64,000 bases of DNA from Polystyrenella longa (GTDB lineage: Bacteria > Planctomycetota > Planctomycetia > Planctomycetales > Planctomycetaceae): positions 4,735,001-4,799,000 of the forward strand of contig NZ_CP036281.1 in the NCBI RefSeq assembly GCF_007750395.1. The letters run 5' to 3'. The notes under the pieces were generated by a model. That model was not told where the DNA came from and ran no database searches. It saw only the letters and a program-made list of their open reading frames with translations. Shown here piece by piece: positions 10,697 to 25,382 of this stretch; the stretch's first letter is position 1, and every line of letters starts with the position of its first letter. The position numbers and the translations under genes were made by a program.

Positions 10697-12352
10697 ATGG
10701 CTATTCACCCAACCCGTAGCGGATATACACTCATCGAGTTAGTCGTGAGTATCGGTGCCAGTACTGTACTGGTTCTGGGGCTGGGATCTTCCATGTATCT
10801 GGCTGGACAGGCGCTGGCTCCGTCGGAATTGCTTACAAATACACTAAACGCTACGGAGGTTCTGCATAACCTGACCGACGATGTACAAAACGCGATTTAC
10901 CTTTCCGAGCATACTGATAACGTTATTGAGTTCGTTGTTCGGGACATGAATGGAGACAGTGTTCCCGATGTCGTCCGCTATGAATGGAGTGGCACACCAG
11001 GGGATCCGTTGATCAAAAAGTTCAATTATGGTTCCCCAGTTCAACTGATCGATGCAGTCCAGAACTTCGAACTGAAATATAATACGCGTTCGACCACTGA
11101 AGAATTCCCACCTAGCTTGATCGAAAGTGAAGAACAATTAATCGGTGGTGCGTTAATTTCCTTCTCTGGAACTCAACGAGTCTCCGCCATATATGAGGCT
11201 GGTTGGCCAGGTTTTTACTTTGTTCCGGTGATAGCGGATGGAGCCGAATCCTGGAACGTTACCAAAGTCAAACTTGGATTATCCCAATACGACGTAAGCG
11301 ATAACGGCAGTTTCTATCTTCAACTTCGATCCGCAACGGCAGGCCACATCCCCACGAGTGAAGTGCTGGAGCAGACTCTGGTACTGGAGAGTTCACTCAG
11401 TAGTTCATTGACTCTCAAAGAATTCAACTTCTCCGCTGTGAAGGGTTTATTACCAACTGATCGACTCTGCGGTGTACTACAACACCTAGACGGAACATAC
11501 TCTGGCAAAGTCAAAAGTCACTATCGGAATGGTGAACCTTATGCTCATGCAGTTAGATCAAATAATCAGGGGTCGAGCTGGTTCTCTGAGGAAGACGAGA
11601 TAGTCTATCACGAGGTCTGGGGAACCTATTATTACGGATCAGATAATGGAATGACGGTTGATCGGAACTATTTCACCGGTTTGAACGTGACATTGCAGTT
11701 GGGAAACACAACGGAGTCACAAGTTCGCACCGGGATTCCGCTCTTGAATTCCCCCGAATTACTGGTGGGTCTCTGGGAACTCGATTTTGACAATGACCCT
11801 TTAACGGCCGACACCAACTTCGACAATCTCAACGACTGGAGCTTGAAAGAAGGGGGCACCTTCGACACGGAAACACTTGCTCAAGGTGTTTGGGAATCCG
11901 ACGAAAGCATACTACGCACCGCACCCGATCACGACTTTCTGGAACCGACGACGGTGGTGGTTCGCCTGCGAGCAACAACCACAGGAGGGGAGGGGGCCGT
12001 CTTCGAAATGTATTCCGACTGGGATAATTCAAATGCCTTCGCTCTCCGAGGTCGCGTCACCCGCGAAACGAATAACACTCAAACTTATACCGCCGAGTCT
12101 CAATCATCTCCGGGCGTCTGGAACCAAGTCGTTCGCGTAGAGAATTTACCTCTCGATTTCATCGAAGTCCGAGTCGTCATCAGCCCCGATGATATGAATC
12201 ATGCCCAATTTCTACAGGGCAATCTGCTTGACAATTACACTTACTCGCGAGTATCGACAGACAATACGAAGAAATATGTATCGCTTTACGAATCAGGCTG
12301 TGATGCAGAGTTTGATTACATTTCCATACGCGTATCCGAACAACCGGAATAG
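10697..12352 (+). CDS. Minor pseudopilin with two large extracellular beta domains
   Basis: 551 residues, far longer than a normal GspJ/PilW (about 200). It has a prepilin site RSG/YTLIELVVSIGA with Gly9 at -1 and Glu14 at +5. A GspJ-like region runs to about residue 150. One beta-sandwich-like domain lies at about 160-330, with a pattern of L, G and P spacing seen in choice-of-anchor type extracellular domains. A second lies at about 345-551, of LamG/concanavalin-like appearance and rich in aromatic and Asp/Asn residues. The pilin part is seen clearly; the fold of the two C-terminal regions is inferred from composition and length. It may be a tip adhesin. Confidence 0.8.
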   Translation: MAIHPTRSGYTLIELVVSIGASTVLVLGLGSSMYLAGQALAPSELLTNTLNATEVLHNLTDDVQNAIYLSEHTDNVIEFVVRDMNGDSVPDVVRYEWSGTPGDPLIKKFNYGSPVQLIDAVQNFELKYNTRSTTEEFPPSLIESEEQLIGGALISFSGTQRVSAIYEAGWPGFYFVPVIADGAESWNVTKVKLGLSQYDVSDNGSFYLQLRSATAGHIPTSEVLEQTLVLESSLSSSLTLKEFNFSAVKGLLPTDRLCGVLQHLDGTYSGKVKSHYRNGEPYAHAVRSNNQGSSWFSEEDEIVYHEVWGTYYYGSDNGMTVDRNYFTGLNVTLQLGNTTESQVRTGIPLLNSPELLVGLWELDFDNDPLTADTNFDNLNDWSLKEGGTFDTETLAQGVWESDESILRTAPDHDFLEPTTVVVRLRATTTGGEGAVFEMYSDWDNSNAFALRGRVTRETNNTQTYTAESQSSPGVWNQVVRVENLPLDFIEVRVVISPDDMNHAQFLQGNLLDNYTYSRVSTDNTKKYVSLYESGCDAEFDYISIRVSEQPE

Positions 12353-12413
12353 CGTTTTCGCAAAACCACGCCAACTTTCTTACCTCACCGACAATCAGTA
12401 ACGACGACTAAAC

Positions 12414-13265
12414 ATGAACAAGCGTCATCAAACAACCAGAAACTTCTCGTCTCGCAAAGCCGGTTTGAGCCTGCTTGAAGTGGTGATGAGTACGTTATTG
12501 ATTTCTATCCTGATGTTGACAGCCTTGCGAACAGTCGGCGCATCGTTTCGAGCCGAGTTTTTTACTGCTCAGCAGACTCAGGCAATGCTGTTTGCAGAAG
12601 ATTTATTGTCTGAGATCATTCAGATGGAATACGAAGAACCCGTCGACCCAGTTTCCTTCGGTAGAGAAACGGGCGAAGTGGGCACCAACAGAACAACATG
12701 GGATGACGTCGACGACTACAACGGCTGGACTTCCTCACCACTGCAATATCAGGACGGAACAGAAATCCCTGACACAAGCTCCTGGACCCGTGCAGTTTCT
12801 GTCCAGTTCGTATTGGCTGACTCTCCAGACACGACCACCAACGACGATGAAGGCTTGAAGAAGATTACCGTCACTATCTCGAAAAACAATGTCGTTCTGG
12901 GTTCCTTGTCTGTTCTCCAGTCGAAGGCTTGGATTAACACGATTCCGGATCCGAACAATAATCTCAGTACGGGTAGCAAACCCTCTGTAAACCAGTCACC
13001 CATCGCTGTTGCGTCGGCCAGCCCGACTTCTGGTACAAGTTCCGTGAACGTCCAGTTCGATGCGACAAACTCGTCCGACTCGGATGGTGACTCAATCACT
13101 TTTTCCTGGGATTATGGCGACGGAAGTTCAGGCACTGGCTCTAAACCTTCCCATACTTTTACGAATGGAACTGGATCCACTCTCGTTCGGATTGTCACCC
13201 TGACGGCCAGCGACAGTTCGGGGGCTCAGGCAACTAAGACCTTAACGATCACCATCAATCCCTGA
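12414..13265 (+). CDS. GspI/PilV-like minor pseudopilin with C-terminal PKD domain
   Basis: 283 residues. A basic leader is followed by KAG/LSLLEVVMSTLLIS, with Gly17 at -1 and Glu22 at +5. The GspI-like region (about 18-170) is followed by a linker and a PKD domain (about 198-283), recognised by NQSPIAVASASP, a VQFDATNSSDSDGDSI stretch and the WDYGDGSSG core. PKD domains are extracellular Ig-like folds in surface and polysaccharide-binding proteins. A pseudopilin carrying one is unusual. It lies 61 bases after the long GspJ-like gene and 56 before the CBM-containing gene. Confidence 0.85.
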   Translation: MNKRHQTTRNFSSRKAGLSLLEVVMSTLLISILMLTALRTVGASFRAEFFTAQQTQAMLFAEDLLSEIIQMEYEEPVDPVSFGRETGEVGTNRTTWDDVDDYNGWTSSPLQYQDGTEIPDTSSWTRAVSVQFVLADSPDTTTNDDEGLKKITVTISKNNVVLGSLSVLQSKAWINTIPDPNNNLSTGSKPSVNQSPIAVASASPTSGTSSVNVQFDATNSSDSDGDSITFSWDYGDGSSGTGSKPSHTFTNGTGSTLVRIVTLTASDSSGAQATKTLTITINP

Positions 13266-13321
13266 TTTGCTGTCATTGACTTCCATTCCACTCATTCTGT
13301 CCTCTTTTCGATCAATCATTC

Positions 13322-15058
13322 ATGTTCACGAAATCCCCAACTTCACCAGCTAAATCAAAAAGGCGGGGCAGTATGTACCTTTCGGTACTGATGGTCTCGG
13401 TGCTGGTCTCGTTGTTGGGTATGTCCGCATTAGTGGTGAAACGTGTCCAACGGCGGAACCATCAATCATCAATGGACGCCAGTCAGGCACGATTCATAGC
13501 GCAATCCGCCTTGCGGATCGGCATGCTCGATATCGAAAATGATCCCAACTGGCGATATAACTTTCCCAACGGAACATGGAAGGATGACGTTGCGCTGCTG
13601 GGAGGAAAGTACACACTGGAAGCTTACGACCCATCCGATGGAGACCTTGCCAACAACCCTGAAGAACCTGTTGTGCTGGTGGCGACCGGCGTCGTTGGTT
13701 CCGCTCGTCAGAAGACACAACTTACATTAACGCCCGTGAACCGAGGTTACTCATTTTTAGAGAAAGCCCTTGTCAGCCAGCACGACATCAAGGTTGAAGA
13801 GAACACTTACCTCTACTGTAATCAAATCCTGGCATCGAATCACGATTTCGATGCACAGAGCGGTAGCTCTATCGTTGCCGATGTAGAAGCCGAAAATGAT
13901 GTAAAAGGTAGTGGTACATATTACGGTACAACAGAGGAAGAAATTCAACAGGAAGCTTTTCCAGAGACTGATGATATTCTCAGTTACTATCTGGCGCGGG
14001 GAACTGAAATTGACTACAGCAGCATTCAAGACAAAGCGGTCAACATCATTAAGAATGATACGTTTGAGACGAATATCGATTTATGGGAAGCGGATAGCTG
14101 TTCGATATCTAAAAGCGAAAGCTGGCCTTACGCTGGTGCGTCCAACTTACTGTGCAGCAATCGTAACTCGGTAAGCGATGCCGTCACCTATGATGTGACG
14201 AATCGAATTGCCAAAGGAGAGACATACAACCTCACCTTCTGGGGCCGTTCTTCGGGAATCACCTACGACGCGTTCAGCGTCATTATAGAAACTGACGCCT
14301 CTTCCAGCGGAGTACAGCAGGTCGTTGCGAATACTGGACTGATGATGCCGTACTGGGTTCAATACACCGTCTCTTTATCTCCTAACTGGAGTGGAACCCT
14401 CAATTCTGCAAAGATCAGAATCCAGACCCGTTATAGCAGCGTCAGTTTCAATATCGACAATGTTTCTTTCAAAGAACCCGACCCGCCCGCTGGTACGATT
14501 TATAAACGAGTCATAAGTCCCAACCATAACCCTTACGGGGAAACAAATCCTGATGGGATTTACTTTATCGACTGCGGAGGAAGCGCCCTGGGAATTGATA
14601 CTTGCCGTATTCTGGGCACGCTGGTCGTTCTCGATTCCGGAGACAGCAGCCAGATTTATCCTGGCCCGATTGCCTGGTCCACTGTGGAGCCCAACTTTCC
14701 CTGTTTGCTGGTCGATGGAAAGTTCAACATTAACGCCACCAGTGACGGTCTGAACGAAACTCGAGATGAAGTGAATTACAACCCGATTGGGGCGGCTCAC
14801 AATACGCTCGGCGAAGATGATGACATTGTCGATACGATTCCGTCGAAAATCTCGGGCCTGATCTACGTCAGCGATGACCTGGTTTTTGACAACCAGGCGA
14901 ACATCGAAGGAGTGGTACTCGGTGGTAATAAAATTACCATCGAAGATACATTCTCGCTGGTTTACAATTCCATCTTCTTTACCAACCCTCCCCCCGGTTT
15001 CAGTGCCCCGGAGACGATCCGCATTCTGTTGAACTCCGTCCAGAAACCGCTCGACTGA
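13322..15058 (+). CDS. PilX/GspK-like minor pseudopilin with a CBM4/9-like domain
   Basis: 578 residues. A basic leader (KSKRRG) precedes a hydrophobic helix SMYLSVLMVSVLVSLLGM; there is no +5 Glu, as in several GspK/PilX proteins. The pilin-like region runs to about 235. Residues about 241-386 look like a carbohydrate-binding CBM4/9-type jelly roll: it opens NDTFETNIDLWE, has YNLTFWGRSSG in mid domain and closes with FNIDNVSFKEP. The C-terminal part (about 400-578) is beta-rich and resembles the polymer-forming surface domain found in planctomycete PilX-like proteins. Last gene of the minor pilin series. Confidence 0.8.
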   Translation: MFTKSPTSPAKSKRRGSMYLSVLMVSVLVSLLGMSALVVKRVQRRNHQSSMDASQARFIAQSALRIGMLDIENDPNWRYNFPNGTWKDDVALLGGKYTLEAYDPSDGDLANNPEEPVVLVATGVVGSARQKTQLTLTPVNRGYSFLEKALVSQHDIKVEENTYLYCNQILASNHDFDAQSGSSIVADVEAENDVKGSGTYYGTTEEEIQQEAFPETDDILSYYLARGTEIDYSSIQDKAVNIIKNDTFETNIDLWEADSCSISKSESWPYAGASNLLCSNRNSVSDAVTYDVTNRIAKGETYNLTFWGRSSGITYDAFSVIIETDASSSGVQQVVANTGLMMPYWVQYTVSLSPNWSGTLNSAKIRIQTRYSSVSFNIDNVSFKEPDPPAGTIYKRVISPNHNPYGETNPDGIYFIDCGGSALGIDTCRILGTLVVLDSGDSSQIYPGPIAWSTVEPNFPCLLVDGKFNINATSDGLNETRDEVNYNPIGAAHNTLGEDDDIVDTIPSKISGLIYVSDDLVFDNQANIEGVVLGGNKITIEDTFSLVYNSIFFTNPPPGFSAPETIRILLNSVQKPLD

Positions 15059-16434: not shown

Positions 16435-16974
16435 ATGGAGTTAACTCCAGAAAAACTGAATAGACGTGATTTCAGCCAACTAACCATGGCCGCCATGGGT
16501 GGATTACTGGCCGGTACTGCCGCCGGTTGCGGGACGGGAGAATCTGCACCTGCAACAACTGAGACAGCTGAAGCTCACGATGAGCATGAAGAGCACGACG
16601 ACGACCATGATCACGATCATGACGTTGAAGCTGCCGAAGGTGGAATTCCAGAAGACTGGAAAGAAATCATCACCTCTGGCAAAAACGTCTGCCGTGGTCT
16701 GAACCAGTGCAAAAACCACCGCGAAGAAGCAAACGACTGTGCGGGAACGGGCGCCTGCTACACGGCGAACAAACATACCTGCCACGCCGACAACGACTGC
16801 AAAGGGCAGGGCGGATGTGGTTCCACTTCGGGACGCAACTCCTGCAAAGGAAAAGGCGAATGTTCCGTTCCGTTGAACGATAAAATTTGGGCCACCACCC
16901 GCACCGCGTTCGAAGAAGCGATGAAAGCGGCCGGGAAAGAATTCGGCGAAGCACCCGCAAAAGTCGAATCCTGA
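16435..16974 (+). CDS. Tat-exported Cys-rich metal-binding RiPP precursor (bufferin-like)
   Basis: 179 residues. It has a Tat signal RRDFSQL (Arg10-Arg11) and a hydrophobic stretch ending in TAAGC, so Cys32 may be lipidated. A His/Asp/Glu-rich segment (about 48-63) follows. The core (86-143) has nine cysteines at 86, 92, 102, 108, 116, 122, 128, 137 and 143, in a repeated C-X5-C pattern with Gly/Lys/Asn between. The tail (about 150-175) is a conserved-looking amphipathic helix. AAAGGAAC gives a strong ribosome site. The DUF692/MNIO and DUF2063 genes follow, as in bufferin clusters, where MNIO enzymes modify precursor cysteines to bind copper. Homology to the bufferin precursor families is by pattern, not by search. 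Confidence 0.82.
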   Translation: MELTPEKLNRRDFSQLTMAAMGGLLAGTAAGCGTGESAPATTETAEAHDEHEEHDDDHDHDHDVEAAEGGIPEDWKEIITSGKNVCRGLNQCKNHREEANDCAGTGACYTANKHTCHADNDCKGQGGCGSTSGRNSCKGKGECSVPLNDKIWATTRTAFEEAMKAAGKEFGEAPAKVES

Positions 16975-17020
16975 TTCTGATTTGAGGTGAAGCATCACTT
17001 CGACAGATTAATTCACGAAA

Positions 17021-17060
17021 ACGCACGTCGGCTCAGGTATAATGGTCTGACGTGCGTTTT
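17021..17060 (+). terminator. Intrinsic terminator/attenuator between precursor and MNIO genes
   Basis: A perfect 9-bp stem ACGCACGTC (17021-17029) / GACGTGCGT (17049-17057) with a 19-base loop, followed by a long T-run. It lies 47 bases after the precursor stop and 24 before the MNIO GTG. Partial readthrough would yield more precursor than enzyme mRNA. The loop also contains TATAAT (17038-17043), a possible -10 box for a second promoter. Confidence 0.75.
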
Positions 17061-17080
17061 TTTCTTTCAGTTGCTTCGCT

Positions 17081-18061
17081 GTGTCTTTCCCGCAGCCTCT
17101 TTCCCGTAGCGAATTCGAATTAGCAGATTCAATCATGACGGAAGCTCGACTTGGACATCCTGACCTGGGACTGGGGCTCGGATTGCGATCCTGCCATTAC
17201 CAGTACATTCTCGACCAACAGCCCGATGTGGACTGGTTCGAAATCATCTCCGAGAACTACATGAACTCGGAGGGTCGACCGCGACACATTCTCAACCAGA
17301 TCGCGGAACGTTATCCACTGGTGATGCACGGTGTCTCCCTTTCCATCGGCAGCACCGATCCGCTGAATTTCGATTATCTCGATGGCCTGAAGAAACTCGC
17401 AACAGAGATCAACGCCCGTTGGGTCTCTGATCATATCTGCTGGACAGGAATCGCCGGTCGCAATACCCACGATCTGCTTCCCATTCCTTATAACGAAGAG
17501 ACCTTAGGTCATCTCACGGCTCGAATTCAGACCGTACAGGAATATTTGGGGCGACCGCTGGTTCTGGAAAACCCGTCCAGCTATATCACCTTCGCCGCTT
17601 CAACAATGGCGGAGGAAGAATTCATAACTCGTCTTGTCCGTCAAACAGGTTGTGGATTGTTGTTGGATGTGAACAACGTCTATGTCAGTTGTTACAACCA
17701 CGACGCCGATCCACTCGACTACATTCGCCGCTTACCGCACGAATCGATCGTGCAGTTTCACCTCGCCGGTCACACTAATCTAGGAACGCACTTAATTGAC
17801 ACCCATGACGGGCATGTGGTTGATCCTGTCTGGAATCTCTACCGTGAAGTCTGTCAGCTAACGGGAAATGTTTCGACCTTGCTGGAGTGGGACGCTCAAA
17901 TTCCTGAGTTTCCAGTGTTGTTTGCCGAAGTTCAGAAAGCCAAAAAGTTTCGCGATGGCGGCCTGACAACTCCCTTCGAGGAGCAATCTCCACCCGAACA
18001 ACCCGTCGCCCGTTCTGCCGTTCCCCATCCAACCACGCTGACGATGATCGAATACGAGTGA
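17081..18061 (+). CDS. DUF692-family multinuclear non-heme iron oxygenase (MNIO, bufferin/MbnB type)
   Basis: 326 residues from the GTG at 17081; an ATG at 17135 (18 codons in) is an equally plausible start, since neither has a clear ribosome site. It is a TIM-barrel DUF692 protein whose conserved metal-ligand motifs are all present: MHGVSLSIG (His83), SDHICW (Asp117, His118), NTHDLLP (His130), LENPSSY (Glu163), [11 protein letters not shown] (Asp196), FHLAGH (His227, His231), IDTHDGH (Asp240, His242) and LLEWD (Glu269). Family members use two or three irons and O2 to rearrange peptide cysteines, as MbnB does in methanobactin. The upstream Cys-rich protein is the likely substrate and the DUF2063 protein (3 bases downstream) the likely partner. 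Confidence 0.92.
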
Positions 18062-18064
18062 GTA

Positions 18065-18955
18065 ATGGACAGGCCCGATTCCGCTTCAATCTTTAAACTG
18101 CCCGTACTGCAACAATGGATGCAACTGGTCATTACGCACCCCCAAGGAATCGAGGGCGGCATTCAATCGTCCACCGCACAGGAGCAGGTTCCAGTCGATC
18201 TCGAATCACTTGAATCCGTCATCCCACGTTCCCGGCAACTGACGAGCCTCCAACGCCTGCAAGTTTATGGAAACGCTTATTACGCGCGTCTGGTCGATTG
18301 TCTGGGGGAAGAATTTCCTGCGCTGCATTATGGCCTGGGCGAAGAAACTTTTTCAGGTTTCGCGTTCGCCTATCTGCAATCGTACCCATCCACCAGTTAT
18401 ACACTCGATGATTTAGGCAGGAACTTTCCGACCTTCCTGGAAGAAACGCGGCCCCGTGATCCAGACAGCGGGTGGGCCGATTTTCTGATCGATCTTGCTC
18501 GGCTGGAACGGACGTATGCCGACGTTTTTGATGGTCCTGGAATGGAAGATGAATCGCCCCTCAACATCGAGCAACTCGCCGCTATTCCGCCCTCCGATTG
18601 GGAACGACTCTGCCTCACTCCGGCACCCTGCTTGCGACTCCTGGAACTCCAATACCCCATCCACCTGTATGCGACTGCTGTCAAAAAAGAAGAACAACCC
18701 AGTTTCCCCACTGCGGAAAAAACGTGGCTGGTCATCTTTCGGTCTGAGTACATCGTGCGGCGAAGGGCTGTGGACGAGACGCAATTTCGGCTTCTGGAAA
18801 GATTGATCTCCGGGGTCACCTTGGGGGCAGCACTCGAATCGACCATCCCCGACGAATGGTTCGACAATGGAAATCTGCAGCAGACTTTGCAGGAATGGTT
18901 TACCTTTTGGGCAAAATGGCGGTTCTTTTCCGGGTATCGATTAGAACAATCATAA
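18065..18955 (+). CDS. DUF2063-family partner of the MNIO enzyme (BufC/HvfC-like)
   Basis: 296 residues, starting 3 bases after the MNIO stop. The N-terminal DUF2063 domain (about 10-130) is recognised by LTSLQRLQVYGNAYYARLVD, then FPALHYGLGEETF and YPSTSYTLDDLGRNFP. A second alpha/beta domain (about 155-290) follows. In bufferin and related clusters this protein binds the precursor leader and delivers it to the DUF692 oxygenase. The pairing of DUF692 with DUF2063 is standard. The gene ends the cluster; no dedicated exporter, regulator or DoxX-like gene follows. Confidence 0.88.
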   Translation: MDRPDSASIFKLPVLQQWMQLVITHPQGIEGGIQSSTAQEQVPVDLESLESVIPRSRQLTSLQRLQVYGNAYYARLVDCLGEEFPALHYGLGEETFSGFAFAYLQSYPSTSYTLDDLGRNFPTFLEETRPRDPDSGWADFLIDLARLERTYADVFDGPGMEDESPLNIEQLAAIPPSDWERLCLTPAPCLRLLELQYPIHLYATAVKKEEQPSFPTAEKTWLVIFRSEYIVRRRAVDETQFRLLERLISGVTLGAALESTIPDEWFDNGNLQQTLQEWFTFWAKWRFFSGYRLEQS

Positions 18956-19138: not shown

Positions 19139-21007
19139 GTGTCGCTGACTGAACTTGCCACACAATTAAAAGATTTAAAAACGGCGACGGAGAAACTCCA
19201 TCACGTCAGTCATCTGCTCCAGATTGCACCACTCAAAGAACGGGAATGGTTTCAGTTAATCGAACATAAACTGTTGCCTCAGATGCAACAGGATTCGTTC
19301 CTGATCGCCGCTGTCGTCGGTGGAACCAACATTGGCAAAAGCGCGATCTTTAATCGGCTTGCCGGGGAACAAATCAGCTCGGTTAGTCCGCTCGCATCGG
19401 GAACCAAACATCCTGTATGTCTTGTCCCAACCGGGTTTAATGATCGCCATCAACTGGACGACATCTTCAATTCTTTTGAATTACAAAAATGGGCCGACGC
19501 GGACGAAGCATTGCAGGAATCGGACACCGACTACCTCTTCTGGCGAGAAGCGGAAAACCTACCGCCGAACCTGCTGATCCTCGACACTCCCGACATCGAC
19601 AGTGACGCGATGGTCAACTGGGATCGAGCCGACAAGATTCGCTTGACTGCCGACGTGTTGATTACCGTCCTGACTCAGCAAAAATACAACGACGCCGCTG
19701 TAAAAGAGTTCTTCCGAAAAGCGGCTGCGGAAGACAAAGTCCTGATGGTTGTCTTCAACCAATGTCAGCTTCCCGAAGATGAAGAATACTGGCCCATCTG
19801 GTTAGAGACATTCTGCGCGACGACAGGGGCACGCCCGGAATACCTGTATCTGGTTCCCAGTGACCGGACTGCCGTCACCGAGAATCGACTTCTCTTCCTG
19901 GAACGCGAATATCGCCAACCGGGTGAAGCTGCTTCACAGACGACGAATGAAAACACCACTTCCTCCAGCGACCTCGCAACCGACTTATCACAGCTCAAGT
20001 TTCAGGAAATCAAACTGCGAACACTTCAAGGTTCACTGAAAGAAGTCCTTCATCCACAGAAGGGGGTCTCCGGATTTCTGACTGAAATCGAACGGGTTAG
20101 CCAGGAGTTCCGCGTCGCGGCAGAAAAGATCTCGACGGAAAGTGTCACTCAGATTTCTGATTGGCCCATTCTACCGAATTCAATTCTCGTACATGAAATC
20201 CGCCAATGGTGGAAAGATCACCAGACAGGCTGGGCCCGAAATGTGCAATCGGTCTACGATACGGTTGGAGCAGGGATCACTAAGCCATTCAAAATGCTCA
20301 AAGCCAGTCTCGGTGGGGAAACAACTTCTCCACTCGAAGAATATCGGAAGCGGGAACGGGCGGCTCTGTTGAAGACAGTCGAGGAAATCTTCAAAACCCT
20401 TAGTTGGATGCGGGACTCCTCCTCTACGTTGATCCGTCCGAACTTCGAAAAAGCCCTCGCCGGTCACGACCGTGCGAAACTTCTCGAGAGACTCAAAGCT
20501 CGACATGACGCCTTCGATTTGAAGCATGATCTTAAACAGGTCGTACATCAGGAGATGAGTCTGTTCCAAAAGAACAATCCAGAAGCCTATCGGCTTTATC
20601 AAAACTTAAATCAAGCTTCCGCCGCAGTACGCCCCGTCACCAGCGTGGCCTTGTTCACTTTGGGATGGGGACCTGCTGGCGAACTTGTTGCCCCTGTGGT
20701 CGTCCCTTTTGTTGCTGACTTCATTACGGGGACCGTGACCGCCGTCGCGGGCGAACAGGCAGTCACCTCCACTGCGAGTTCCGGAATTGGATTCCTGCAG
20801 TCCAAGTTTCAAAAACTACAGGACCATTTCACGCGGATACGTGTCCAGTGGATGGTTGAGCTGATCAAGGAAGAACTACTGGGGAACCTACCGGGTGACC
20901 TGCAACAGGCAGCGTCCTTGAATGAATCTCCAGAATTCAAACAAGTCGAAGCGGCTCTCCTTGAATTAAAACAGCAAATGAAAACTGTCGAACAATCTGT
21001 CAACTGA
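19139..21007 (+). CDS. Large dynamin-like/YeeP-type GTPase A
   Basis: 622 residues from a GTG at 19139. The G1 loop GGTNIGKS (61-68) is intact. The switch region has SPLASGTKHPV and G3 is LDTPDID. The expected G4 (N/T-K-x-D) is replaced by FNQCQ near residue 203, so guanine specificity is uncertain. Helical regions follow, with a hydrophobic, Ala/Gly/Val-rich stretch at about 500-545 that could insert in a membrane, and a coiled-coil tail. Length and layout fit bacterial dynamin-like or 50S-binding GTPase relatives. The second GTPase follows 19 bases downstream. Function is unknown; membrane remodelling is a reasonable guess. Confidence 0.75.
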   Translation: MSLTELATQLKDLKTATEKLHHVSHLLQIAPLKEREWFQLIEHKLLPQMQQDSFLIAAVVGGTNIGKSAIFNRLAGEQISSVSPLASGTKHPVCLVPTGFNDRHQLDDIFNSFELQKWADADEALQESDTDYLFWREAENLPPNLLILDTPDIDSDAMVNWDRADKIRLTADVLITVLTQQKYNDAAVKEFFRKAAAEDKVLMVVFNQCQLPEDEEYWPIWLETFCATTGARPEYLYLVPSDRTAVTENRLLFLEREYRQPGEAASQTTNENTTSSSDLATDLSQLKFQEIKLRTLQGSLKEVLHPQKGVSGFLTEIERVSQEFRVAAEKISTESVTQISDWPILPNSILVHEIRQWWKDHQTGWARNVQSVYDTVGAGITKPFKMLKASLGGETTSPLEEYRKRERAALLKTVEEIFKTLSWMRDSSSTLIRPNFEKALAGHDRAKLLERLKARHDAFDLKHDLKQVVHQEMSLFQKNNPEAYRLYQNLNQASAAVRPVTSVALFTLGWGPAGELVAPVVVPFVADFITGTVTAVAGEQAVTSTASSGIGFLQSKFQKLQDHFTRIRVQWMVELIKEELLGNLPGDLQQAASLNESPEFKQVEAALLELKQQMKTVEQSVN

Positions 21008-21026
21008 ACGAACACCGACATTCCCT

Positions 21027-22874
21027 TTGCCGAACGAATCCTATTTGCCTGAGACTTATCTGATGTCCTCACCCCGAATCGATCAAATAGAACTGCTGAC
21101 CAGAATCGACGAACTGACCACCCAGTTACGTCGTTGGATCGACGTGGAACATGCGTGGGAGCCGTTGCAGCATTCGCAAAACCTGTTGAAGCAACTTCTG
21201 AGCCGCGCCGAAGATCTTCGTCTGCGGATCGAACAGCCTTTAGTCGTCGCCACCTTTGGAGGAACAGGAACAGGCAAGAGCACGCTGGTTAATGCCCTGA
21301 TTGGTTCCGAAGTCAGCCGCACTGGTAAACAGCGTCCCACAACGCGCCGACCCGTTCTGCTGGTCCATCCTTCTACTGATCCAACCCATCTCAGTTTTCC
21401 AATTCACGACTTCGAAGTGGAAGTGGTCGACTCACCCCTCCTCCAGGATATCGTACTGGTCGACTGCCCCGACCCGGACACTGACGAATCAGCAGCCCAC
21501 GAAAGCAACCTTGCCCGGTTGCACCGGATGATTCCCTATTGCGATGTGTTGATCTACACCACAACCCAACAGAAATATCGTTCCTCGCGCGTCAAAGATG
21601 AATTAATTCAAGCGGCAGTCGGATGCCGATTACTATTTGTCCAATCTCATGCCGACCTGGATGAGGACATCCGCGACGACTGGCGAGGTCAACTCGAACA
21701 GAACTACGCCGTCCCCGAACTGTTTCTCGTCGACTCGATCACAGGCCTGCAGGAACAACAACGGGGATTGCCCCTCACCGGAGACTTCGGACGATTATAC
21801 GAAACAATTCAGTCAGAACTGTCCGCTTCGCATCGTCAACGAATCCGGAGGGCCAACTTACTCGACTTGCTTCAGGCAGGAGTTGACCGCGGCCTTGATA
21901 ACCTTCACGACCATCTCGTCGCATTGCGAAATCTGGAAAGCGCACTCGAACAGGAACAACAGAAGGTCGCGCAGACTTTGACGTCCAACCTGACGGGCGA
22001 ACTGCAATCCAGCCGTGGTCTCTGGGAACGAAGGCTACTCAACTCGGTGGCAGAGATCTGGGGCATCGGCCCCTTTGCCCTTGTCTTAAGGTTATATAAC
22101 AGCCTCGGCAATCTGGCCGCATCGCTCACCTTCTTCCGAGCCCGCAGTACCGCACAGATGGCGATCATCGGAACTCTGCAGGGGATGCGGTGGATTAAAT
22201 CCAAACAGGCCGAACAAAGTTCGGAATCTCAAGCGGAACGCCTTTCATCCATGGGCATAGACGACGACTTGCTCCGTGAAAGCCAAATCGTTGTATCAGG
22301 GTATGCGCAGGAAGCAGGATTCAACCCACAGGAAATTAAAGACTTCTCCTTCGACAACTTGCAACATGATGCCGCTCGGGTGGAGTCTCGTTTTCTGGCG
22401 GATGTTGGCATACAGATTGACGACCTTATTGAACGCATCGCCAAACGAAACTCAGGAAAGCTGACCCGCTTCATCTACGAAACCCTCTGGTCCGCTTATT
22501 TGTTTTTTGTCCTGTTGCGAATTGGAGAGAACTTCTTTATCGACTCTTTCTTTTACGAAGCTCCGCTGCTGCGGATGGAATTTTACATCGCTGCCGGTAT
22601 CTTTCTGATCCTCTGGTCTGGTGTGCTGGTTATTGCTTTAACCTTACAGATACGTCGAGGATTAAACCGGGAGATTGAACAGTTGGCCGACAACCTCGCT
22701 CGCAAAAAACTGACCAGTCCCCTCTATCCTGAATTAGCCACCGCCTGCCATTCGGCCCATCAACAGTTGCACCAGTTGGAACATCTCAAACAGAAAACAG
22801 AAGAAGCTCGCAAGCTGTTAAGTGATCAGTCCTCACTGGGTGGAACGCATGTTCGCAATGTTCCTACGCGATAA
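21027..22874 (+). CDS. Large dynamin-like GTPase B with C-terminal membrane hairpin
   Basis: 615 residues from TTG 21027; ATG 21063 is an alternative start. G1 is GGTGTGKS (about 78-85), switch I has RPTTRRP, and G3 is LVDCPDPD. The G4-like motif is QSHADLD, with His where Lys is expected. A long helical middle region is followed by two membrane segments (about 487-510 and 522-546) and a C-terminal coiled coil. This is the paddle/transmembrane layout seen in bacterial dynamin-like proteins. Being next to a second GTPase of the same size suggests a heteromeric pair, as known for other bacterial dynamin pairs. A housekeeping HPRT gene follows 33 bases downstream. Confidence 0.78.
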   Translation: MPNESYLPETYLMSSPRIDQIELLTRIDELTTQLRRWIDVEHAWEPLQHSQNLLKQLLSRAEDLRLRIEQPLVVATFGGTGTGKSTLVNALIGSEVSRTGKQRPTTRRPVLLVHPSTDPTHLSFPIHDFEVEVVDSPLLQDIVLVDCPDPDTDESAAHESNLARLHRMIPYCDVLIYTTTQQKYRSSRVKDELIQAAVGCRLLFVQSHADLDEDIRDDWRGQLEQNYAVPELFLVDSITGLQEQQRGLPLTGDFGRLYETIQSELSASHRQRIRRANLLDLLQAGVDRGLDNLHDHLVALRNLESALEQEQQKVAQTLTSNLTGELQSSRGLWERRLLNSVAEIWGIGPFALVLRLYNSLGNLAASLTFFRARSTAQMAIIGTLQGMRWIKSKQAEQSSESQAERLSSMGIDDDLLRESQIVVSGYAQEAGFNPQEIKDFSFDNLQHDAARVESRFLADVGIQIDDLIERIAKRNSGKLTRFIYETLWSAYLFFVLLRIGENFFIDSFFYEAPLLRMEFYIAAGIFLILWSGVLVIALTLQIRRGLNREIEQLADNLARKKLTSPLYPELATACHSAHQQLHQLEHLKQKTEEARKLLSDQSSLGGTHVRNVPTR

Positions 22875-23456: not shown

Positions 23457-25382
23457 TTATTTGCGAACAGGTGCCGGAACAAGTTTCTGACGAGGCCAGC
23501 AGGCAGCGACCAATGAGATCAGTACCAGACCAAGACAGATCATGGCGAACCAGTCCCCGTAGTAGAGGTAAGGGCTCGTCCGTTTGTCGAGGGGCACCTG
23601 ATCGATCAGAATTCCGTTCACCTGTTTGAACCAGCTGCCGGTTTTGGGATCGATAATGGAAGCATGCATTTCTGTTTTTGTTTCCCGATTTTCCAGTTCG
23701 ACTGTCTGGAAAACTTCAGGTTCGCTGCGGATGACGCCTTGGGAGTCAATGACGACAGAAATCCCTGTATTCACGGCACGCACCATCGGAGTACGCGTTT
23801 CTACGCATCGGAACGCTGAGGTAATCAAGTGCTGGTCGAGTTCACTGGAACCATGGAACCAACCATCGTTGGTTAAATTCACGAGGCAATCGACTGGTTT
23901 TTCTTCATCGATTCCTGTCTTCACGAAATCACGAACCAAGGTCGGGACAGTATCTTCGTAACAGATGAGCGGGGCAAAGTTCCATTCATCATGAGCAAAG
24001 AAAAAGGGTTCGATTCCGGCATCGATTCCCATTCCACCGGTCGTCGGCGAGACCATATTGCCTTTCAACAGCTCGTCCTGGAAAGGAATATACTCTCCAA
24101 ACACCACCCGATGATTTTTGTCGTAGATTCCTTTGATCCCCTCCAGAGGTGAAATACAAACAGCCGAGTTGTAAGCGTGCATTCGTTCCTCATCCAGACG
24201 GCGGGAATCGATTCCGATTACCAGTGCCGCACCTGATTGAGAACTCAAACCTTCCAGCATTTCGGGAACGGTCTTATCGTTCCAACGGTCAGCCGGGACC
24301 ATGGGAGCCAGACGCAGCCGTTCATCTTCGGTCAAGCTGGTATCGGCAGTCATTAGCGGATAGCGATACATCGTTTCCGGCCAGACAATTAAGTCGGGCT
24401 GATATTGAACCGTCTGCCCAGTCAGGTAGTAGTGCATATCAAAGATTTGCTGGAACTGACGAGGATCATGTTTCAATGAAGAAGGAAAGTTCCCCTGTAC
24501 CAGAGCCACCCGGGGGCCGGGTACGAATTCTGTTTCAGACAACCGGTAGTACCCGTAACCGAGCACTAATCCAAACAACCCCAGATGGGCCATGACCATC
24601 ACGAATGGTCGGGAAGGAGTTGCCAGCAGGGATTGCTGCGATTGGACTTCCTCAGGATGCGGACGTTCGACAGTTCGGCTCAGCATTTTTAGCTTATGGA
24701 ATACTGACTCCGGCAAAAGTGCCGTAAGCACGGCCGCAGTCGCCGCCATCAGAAAGCTGATTCCATAAGTTCCGGTCAGGTCCGAAATCTGAATCAAGGA
24801 AGTCCAGCGATATTGAGAGTGCGACAAAAAATACCATGGGAAGCCGGTCATCAGAAATCCACGCAGGAATTCCAAACCGACCCAAACCATGGGAACAGCC
24901 ACCGCGAATGGAAGTTGTAATCGATGAACCGCGGCACGCGACATCATAACGAACATGGTCATATAAACTGAGAGGTACAACGCGAGACCGAAAAGGGCGA
25001 AGTACATCAGCGGATCGCCGAGACGCATCCATTGTAGTATGGAAATGTAACCCACGAAGGAAAGCAGGAATGTCGCGCGATAAGTCCAACGGGTTCGCTG
25101 TACTGGTCGGATTAACATCATGGAAGGAACGAGGGCCACCCAACCGAGGACGGACCAGTTGAGTGGTGTGAACGTCGCCCACAACAGTACGGCTGATAGC
25201 CCTGCCAGCATCCAGGTTGCTCGCGACGAAATCGACGCAGTGCGTGCTTTATTGATGATTGCCTGAATCTGTGGATCCAGATTGGCCGCCTTAGTATTGG
25301 CGTTCACGCCTTTACCAGGGGCAGCAACAGGAGTCGTAGATGAATCGGGCGTCGTTTTAGGCGTCATGGTCTCTGTGGACAT
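23457..25382 (-). CDS. lnt: Apolipoprotein N-acyltransferase
   Basis: 641 residues, about 130 longer than E. coli Lnt. A hydrophilic Thr/Pro/Ala-rich extension (about 1-45) precedes six or so membrane helices. A nitrilase-fold domain (about 290-560) carries the catalytic triad Glu in VWPETMYRYP, Lys in YDKNHRVVFGEYIPF and Cys in PLICYED. A last membrane helix lies near the C-terminus, and about 45 residues (VIDSQGVIRSEPEVFQ onward) form the end of the catalytic domain. It adds the third acyl chain to lipoproteins on the outer face of the inner membrane, and its presence supports a diderm envelope. Confidence 0.94.
   Translation of the reverse strand: MSTETMTPKTTPDSSTTPVAAPGKGVNANTKAANLDPQIQAIINKARTASISSRATWMLAGLSAVLLWATFTPLNWSVLGWVALVPSMMLIRPVQRTRWTYRATFLLSFVGYISILQWMRLGDPLMYFALFGLALYLSVYMTMFVMMSRAAVHRLQLPFAVAVPMVWVGLEFLRGFLMTGFPWYFLSHSQYRWTSLIQISDLTGTYGISFLMAATAAVLTALLPESVFHKLKMLSRTVERPHPEEVQSQQSLLATPSRPFVMVMAHLGLFGLVLGYGYYRLSETEFVPGPRVALVQGNFPSSLKHDPRQFQQIFDMHYYLTGQTVQYQPDLIVWPETMYRYPLMTADTSLTEDERLRLAPMVPADRWNDKTVPEMLEGLSSQSGAALVIGIDSRRLDEERMHAYNSAVCISPLEGIKGIYDKNHRVVFGEYIPFQDELLKGNMVSPTTGGMGIDAGIEPFFFAHDEWNFAPLICYEDTVPTLVRDFVKTGIDEEKPVDCLVNLTNDGWFHGSSELDQHLITSAFRCVETRTPMVRAVNTGISVVIDSQGVIRSEPEVFQTVELENRETKTEMHASIIDPKTGSWFKQVNGILIDQVPLDKRTSPYLYYGDWFAMICLGLVLISLVAACWPRQKLVPAPVRK

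Follow-up and report, generated by a model that had tools for sequence, protein, structure and literature searches.

At this locus three genes follow one another on the forward strand, encoding a cysteine-rich precursor, an MNIO/DUF692 enzyme and a DUF2063 partner, with a gap of three bases between the MNIO stop and the start of the partner gene (Table 1; all positions refer to the window, the whole stretch of 64,000 nucleotides that was analyzed). The gene order is A-B-C with the precursor first, as in bufABC, and the loci of relatives show the same order; in most of the loci examined, the precursor, MNIO and DUF2063 genes are found together. No transporter, sensor, DoxX or copper gene is adjacent to the cluster, in line with the first-pass annotation, which had seen no dedicated transporter or sensor, and no extra neighbour gene common to most relative loci was found. 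A second MNIO gene is absent from the 6.13-Mb single-contig genome, the one in the cluster being the sole copy, and a search for plasmid carriage of the precursor core gave no match. The near relatives are planctomycetes, with a Gimesia record among them, and on this basis we assign the organism to that group.

Table 1. Features of the cluster and its surroundings, in positions of the window.
Feature	Position	Strand	Remarks
bufA-type precursor, 179 aa	16435..16974	+	Tat motif, lipobox, acidic/His linker, nine-Cys core, C-terminal tail
Predicted Tat/lipoprotein signal peptide through Cys32 (codon 16528-16530)	16435..16530	+	RRxF 59/59, lipobox Cys 47/59
Nine-cysteine core C86-C143	16690..16863	+	
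Terminator-like hairpin (15 + 3 bp)	17017..17066	+	U tail, TATAAT in loop; between bufA and bufB
MNIO (DUF692, BufB-type), 308 aa	17135..18061	+	PF05114, MNIO_BufB
BufC-type partner, 296 aa	18065..18955	+	DUF2063 + RRE-like C-terminal domain
Lnt	23460-25382		Within the window

Regarding the surroundings, two consecutive dynamin/MMR_HSR1-type GTPase genes (19139-22874) come after the cluster in the window, the first of which is likewise found close to the cluster in L145 and L171, and three consecutive genes at 10697-15058 have N-termini that, judged by eye, are type-II-secretion/pseudopilin-like. In the loci L035, L166, L167, L168 and L172 a class-V aminotransferase gene (SufS-type cysteine desulfurase by sequence) is located directly upstream of bufA, in the same orientation and in an operon-like disposition, while in L033, L037 and L146 (Gimesia-type) a gene for a thioredoxin-like protein, which matches YHS below threshold, lies about 1-2 kb from the cluster on the opposite strand.

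The comparison of the MNIO with PF05114 gave E=1.5e-109 (366 bits), bearing out the DUF692 similarity claimed before, and against the NCBIfam profile MNIO_BufB (NF050167) the protein reached 371.2 bits, over the cut-off of 310. Its motifs (H65, D99-H100, E145, D178-V-N-N181, H209, D222-T-H224 and E251) align with those of the nearest solved MNIO relatives, 3BWW, TglH and MbnB, so that the iron-ligand motifs attributed to the oxygenase are indeed in place. Moreover, the DVNN and DTH motifs contain the residues equivalent to N175, D242 and H244 of HvfB, whose activity is abolished by changing them (PMC13419390). The open frame extends back to a GTG at 17081, which had been taken as the start, with an ATG downstream at 17135; the ATG is the better start and 17081 probably wrong, since the same-genus relative aligns from 17135 and conservation is absent upstream of it.

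The partner protein matches PF09836 (DUF2063; E=1.2e-17, 64.4 bits, cut-off 27.2), and scores slightly under the cut-off against the NGO1945_C profile (25.4 bits, cut-off 27). Its AF2 model (pLDDT 92) matches the fold of NGO1945 (3dee) with Z 15.1 and TglHI entries with Z 13, and the C-terminal part matches the RRE of the leader-binding TbiB1 with Z 8.1; no TorD-like fold was among the structural matches listed. With its DUF2063 and RRE parts it corresponds to the partner that is called PME-type-1 in bufferin systems (PMC12452194). The earlier assignment of this protein thus holds, and the MNIO above the BufB cut-off, the DUF2063-RRE partner and the A-B-C order sustain the reading of the three genes as a bufferin-like cluster.

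The search of the precursor against the BufA families, which had been proposed as a check, gave 20.1 bits against BufA2 (NF050166) and 24.4 bits for the core alone, both under the cut-off of 60. All of the 16 sampled members of the precursor family matched BufA2 at E<0.01, and the relative L201, with which the precursor has the planctomycete tail in common, passes the cut-off with 62.8 bits; L201 and L202 have 11-12 Cys and the same tail as the nine-Cys members. We classify the precursor as a diverged branch of bufferin-2 (BufA2), homologous to the family. Its core cysteines are at positions 86, 92, 102, 108, 116, 122, 128, 137 and 143 (spacings 5, 9, 5, 7, 5, 5, 8 and 5), with the exact C-X5-C spacing in five of the eight gaps, and a helix is predicted in the C-terminal tail at residues 149-165. 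Exactly nine core Cys were counted in 54 of the 58 relatives scored, instead of the 6 or 12 of BufA2, and we know of no characterised bufferin with a nine-Cys pattern. An alignment with the 12-Cys BufA2-like planctomycete proteins L182, L183 and L191 was used to interpret this core, which reads as a duplicated 12-Cys BufA2 unit minus an internal stretch with two Cys and minus one Cys in the second half, because L201 passes the cut-off and carries the same tail. The CKG and CAG motifs of the precursor match 'Cys-Lys' captophorin substrates (PMC13097082). The AF2 model of the precursor (pLDDT 41) leaves the core without a fold, AF2 being blind to modifications and metals.

The His/Asp run pointed out by the first-pass annotation is present at about residues 48-63 and is not a part of the core; the linker lacks His in 42 of the 59 relatives and also in the same-genus relative, and His-free linkers in so many members rule out the run as a conserved metal site. 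Within the bacterial family, 81/150 genomes contain the precursor family, and across the phylum it was found in 56 of the 392 genomes sampled, the weaker matches including 12-Cys relatives; given this frequency in the bacterial family and the conservation of RRxF and of the nine-Cys pattern, the three-gene observation is more than chance. At one locus (L032:1173-2252) tandem precursors, one a lipobox form and one with an AxA-type site, are placed ahead of one MNIO.

Residues 9-13 of the precursor are N-R-R-D-F (R10-R11-D-F13), and a lipobox-like TAAGC ends at Cys32. From 62 high-scoring planctomycete ORFs we aligned the 59 distinct ones having RRxF in the first 90 residues, so that the motif, present in every aligned relative, was itself used to select them; of the three ORFs left out, one shows TRRDF after a mis-called early start, one SRREL, and the third is interrupted by an in-frame stop ahead of the signal. 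The n-region flanking the motif is variable, and the invariant part of the signal consists of RRxF plus a Gly/Ala-rich, weakly hydrophobic h-region, with a best 15-residue hydrophobicity of 1.65 versus 1.95 in RR-less relatives (p = 1.5e-6, rows not phylogenetically independent). Since these RR-less, Sec-like relatives are present in the same phylum, the Tat signal characterises this branch rather than the phylum as a whole. The twin-arginine motif proposed before has been confirmed. When compared with DUF1501 Tat proteins, signal conservation was 0.50 versus 0.36-0.41 at a mature identity of 0.4-0.6, a relation that is reversed at 0.6-0.7, with controls that include at least one doubtful frame. 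The sequence features of a Tat substrate, namely an RRxF-like motif, a weakly hydrophobic h-region and TatC in the genome, are all found, and the precursor appears to carry a Tat-type motif in place of the Sec signal peptide of bufferins.

As for the lipobox, the claim made for Cys32 is supported by sequence comparison, the site being usual in the relatives without being universal: most of the 12 members that lack this Cys have an AxA-type (signal-peptidase-I-type) site and keep 8-11 core Cys. As those members retain their core Cys and mostly show AxA-type sites, Cys32 appears to behave as a lipobox and not as a metal ligand. The residue at -3 (Ala, Met or Phe in many members) deviates from the commonest lipobox consensus. 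A lipobox Cys after the h-region, together with Lgt and LspA encoded in the genome, corresponds to what is seen in bacterial lipoproteins. The minority of relatives without a lipid anchor is expected to be a soluble periplasmic form, and RR is also kept in these soluble members. Parsimony on the MNIO tree gave 7 lipid/no-lipid changes within the RR group, with low branch support, the starred branches forcing only 2 changes whichever the Tat state.

Core relatives without a clear signal peptide (ELHVCMGLNSCKN...) were also observed, in L040, L041, L043-L059, L084 (Bacteroidota) and L061 (gammaproteobacterium). Their genes adjoin those of an MNIO and of a genuine DUF2063 partner; in those checked, in-frame stops are present upstream, and the MNIO tree groups the sampled ones in a single clade, beside a planctomycete Tat form. 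They represent an exception to the published correlation of PME-type-1 with signal-peptide precursors.

The 106-nt stretch with the intergenic hairpin folds at -37.3 kcal/mol (fold z = -4.4). The hairpin arms and TATAATGG are kept in the same-genus relative, the remaining spacer not being conserved, and the hairpin is a single copy in the window; it was not among the hits of a terminator scan that considered loops of 3-8. Under a strict rule similar hairpins were detected in 16/85 A-B spacers, too few for a general feature of such spacers. The hairpin probably limits read-through, setting the ratio of precursor to enzyme, and the TATAAT in its loop could be a promoter element; no consensus promoter site was found upstream of bufA.

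The three-gene set very probably makes a cysteine-rich metal-buffering peptide. At the level of sequence, the gene content, the homology, the conservation of signal and cysteines and the export and lipidation genes argue for a bufferin-2-type bufABC cluster (captophorin, 'Cys-Lys' group) in which Tat replaces Sec, with cytoplasmic Cys oxidation and then Tat export leading to a lipid-anchored metal buffer, a reading that we consider likely. Some 16% of the Buf2 precursors have been predicted to be lipoproteins with a Sec signal (PMC12452194) and the same phylum has RR-less, Sec-like relatives, so one could see here an ordinary Sec-exported bufferin-2 lipoprotein, RR being merely the positive n-region of a Sec signal; however, two invariant arginines are not required by Sec signals, RRxF persists in all aligned relatives while the n-region around it varies, the h-region is Gly/Ala-rich and weakly hydrophobic, and RR is retained in soluble members, which makes this improbable. 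We give even less credit to an unmodified precursor, that is, a plain Tat-exported, Cys-rich, metal-binding lipoprotein resembling Csp1, with the MNIO acting elsewhere. Tat-exported Cys-rich copper stores do exist (Csp1; PMC12510493) and the precursor is under the BufA2 cut-off, but its gene stands with those of the MNIO and the DUF2063 protein in most loci, the MNIO is the only one in the genome, and the CKG/CAG motifs fit 'Cys-Lys' captophorin substrates (PMC13097082).

The metal is a separate matter, as the cluster may be a true MNIO/Tat one whose product serves zinc or other metal buffering, or redox/sulfur stress, and not copper. No copper gene is adjacent, some clusters adjoin the class-V aminotransferase (cysteine desulfurase type) or the thioredoxin-like protein, roles beyond copper have been suggested (PMC12452194), and the His/Asp run of this precursor might be a Zn or Ni site; nevertheless this run is not conserved and copper is the metal chelated by the characterised PME1-MNIO members, and we hold the non-copper alternative to be unlikely, though worth keeping in mind.

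For the likely course of a Tat-routed bufferin pathway, we infer the modification chemistry, the metal, the order of events and the localisation as follows. The precursor would be made in excess, the hairpin after bufA limiting read-through into bufBC, and the DUF2063-RRE partner would present it to the MNIO diiron enzyme, which would carry out a 4-electron oxidation of each of several core Cys in the cytoplasm, with 5-thiooxazoles as the probable result. Once complete, the peptide, compact by then and possibly carrying its metal, would be handed to TatC via its twin-arginine motif; after export, Cys32 would be turned by Lgt and LspA (and Lnt) into a lipidated N-terminus, the end state being a thiol/thiooxazole buffer, most likely for Cu(I), on the external face of the membrane or on the outer membrane. 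Characterised MNIO-PME1 pairs install 5-thiooxazoles and their products chelate copper (PMC13097082, PMC12452194), and both assignments, probable in our case, are taken from these relatives. With Tat export, folding takes place in the cytoplasm and the metal is sometimes selected there too, as in MncA versus CucA (PMC4192464).

Antoine et al. proposed that the partner masks the Sec signal until modification is complete. By analogy, the DUF2063-RRE partner might be a Tat proofreading chaperone, which would hold the RR signal as a RiPP leader and release it to TatC after the Cys are finished, export being gated by modification; we put this forward as a tentative idea. The Tat signal-peptide chaperones TorD/NarJ (PMC8428690) likewise hold their substrate until it is matured, a likeness that is one of analogy only, whereas the partner here is a DUF2063-RRE protein with no TorD/NarJ among its structural matches.

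When compared with Bufferin-2/BufA2 (NF050166; Buf2, 6/12-Cys), the cluster has the same A-B-C order, an MNIO over the BufB cut-off, a DUF2063-RRE partner, CKGxN/CKGxGxC repeats and a signal peptide in the precursor; it differs in the predicted Tat instead of Sec route, in nine core Cys instead of 6 or 12, in the long C-terminal tail, in the lack of DoxX and in a precursor under the family cut-off. The RiPP-lipoproteins DybA/NedA (PMC12636315) are also MNIO-associated lipobox peptides with lipidation expected after export, although they are chryseobasin-like and EGKCG-type peptides, and Tat is unmentioned in that work, whose mining kept only 50-160 aa and so excluded the 179-aa precursor. Csp1 (Methylosinus; Neisseria NGO1701, PMC12510493) is likewise a Tat-exported, Cys-rich envelope metal buffer, but it is a four-helix bundle with unmodified Cys, without an MNIO and with no lipobox reported. 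The first-pass annotation had regarded a lipid-anchored modified peptide as unusual, a view that does not stand against the predicted lipoproteins among Buf2 precursors (PMC12452194) and the two MNIO lipopeptides demonstrated by mass spectrometry (PMC12636315). What stands out is the Tat route, not lipidation; a keyword search of the open-licence literature turned up no paper describing an MNIO peptide or bufferin exported by Tat.

Tat prefers folded, matured cargo, and therefore a branch with Tat export and a lipid anchor would give a natural solution to the problem of premature export. For Sec, the question has been raised of what keeps a precursor that bears an export signal inside the cell until it is modified (PMC12452194). 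If the partner were a Tat chaperone, a RiPP pathway would be merged with Tat quality control, planctomycete-wide. Our results suggest that the same core occurs with different modes of export (Tat with or without a lipid anchor, Sec, and no signal), and that a membrane-bound metal buffer is present in a large share of planctomycete genomes (81 of the 150 in this bacterial family).
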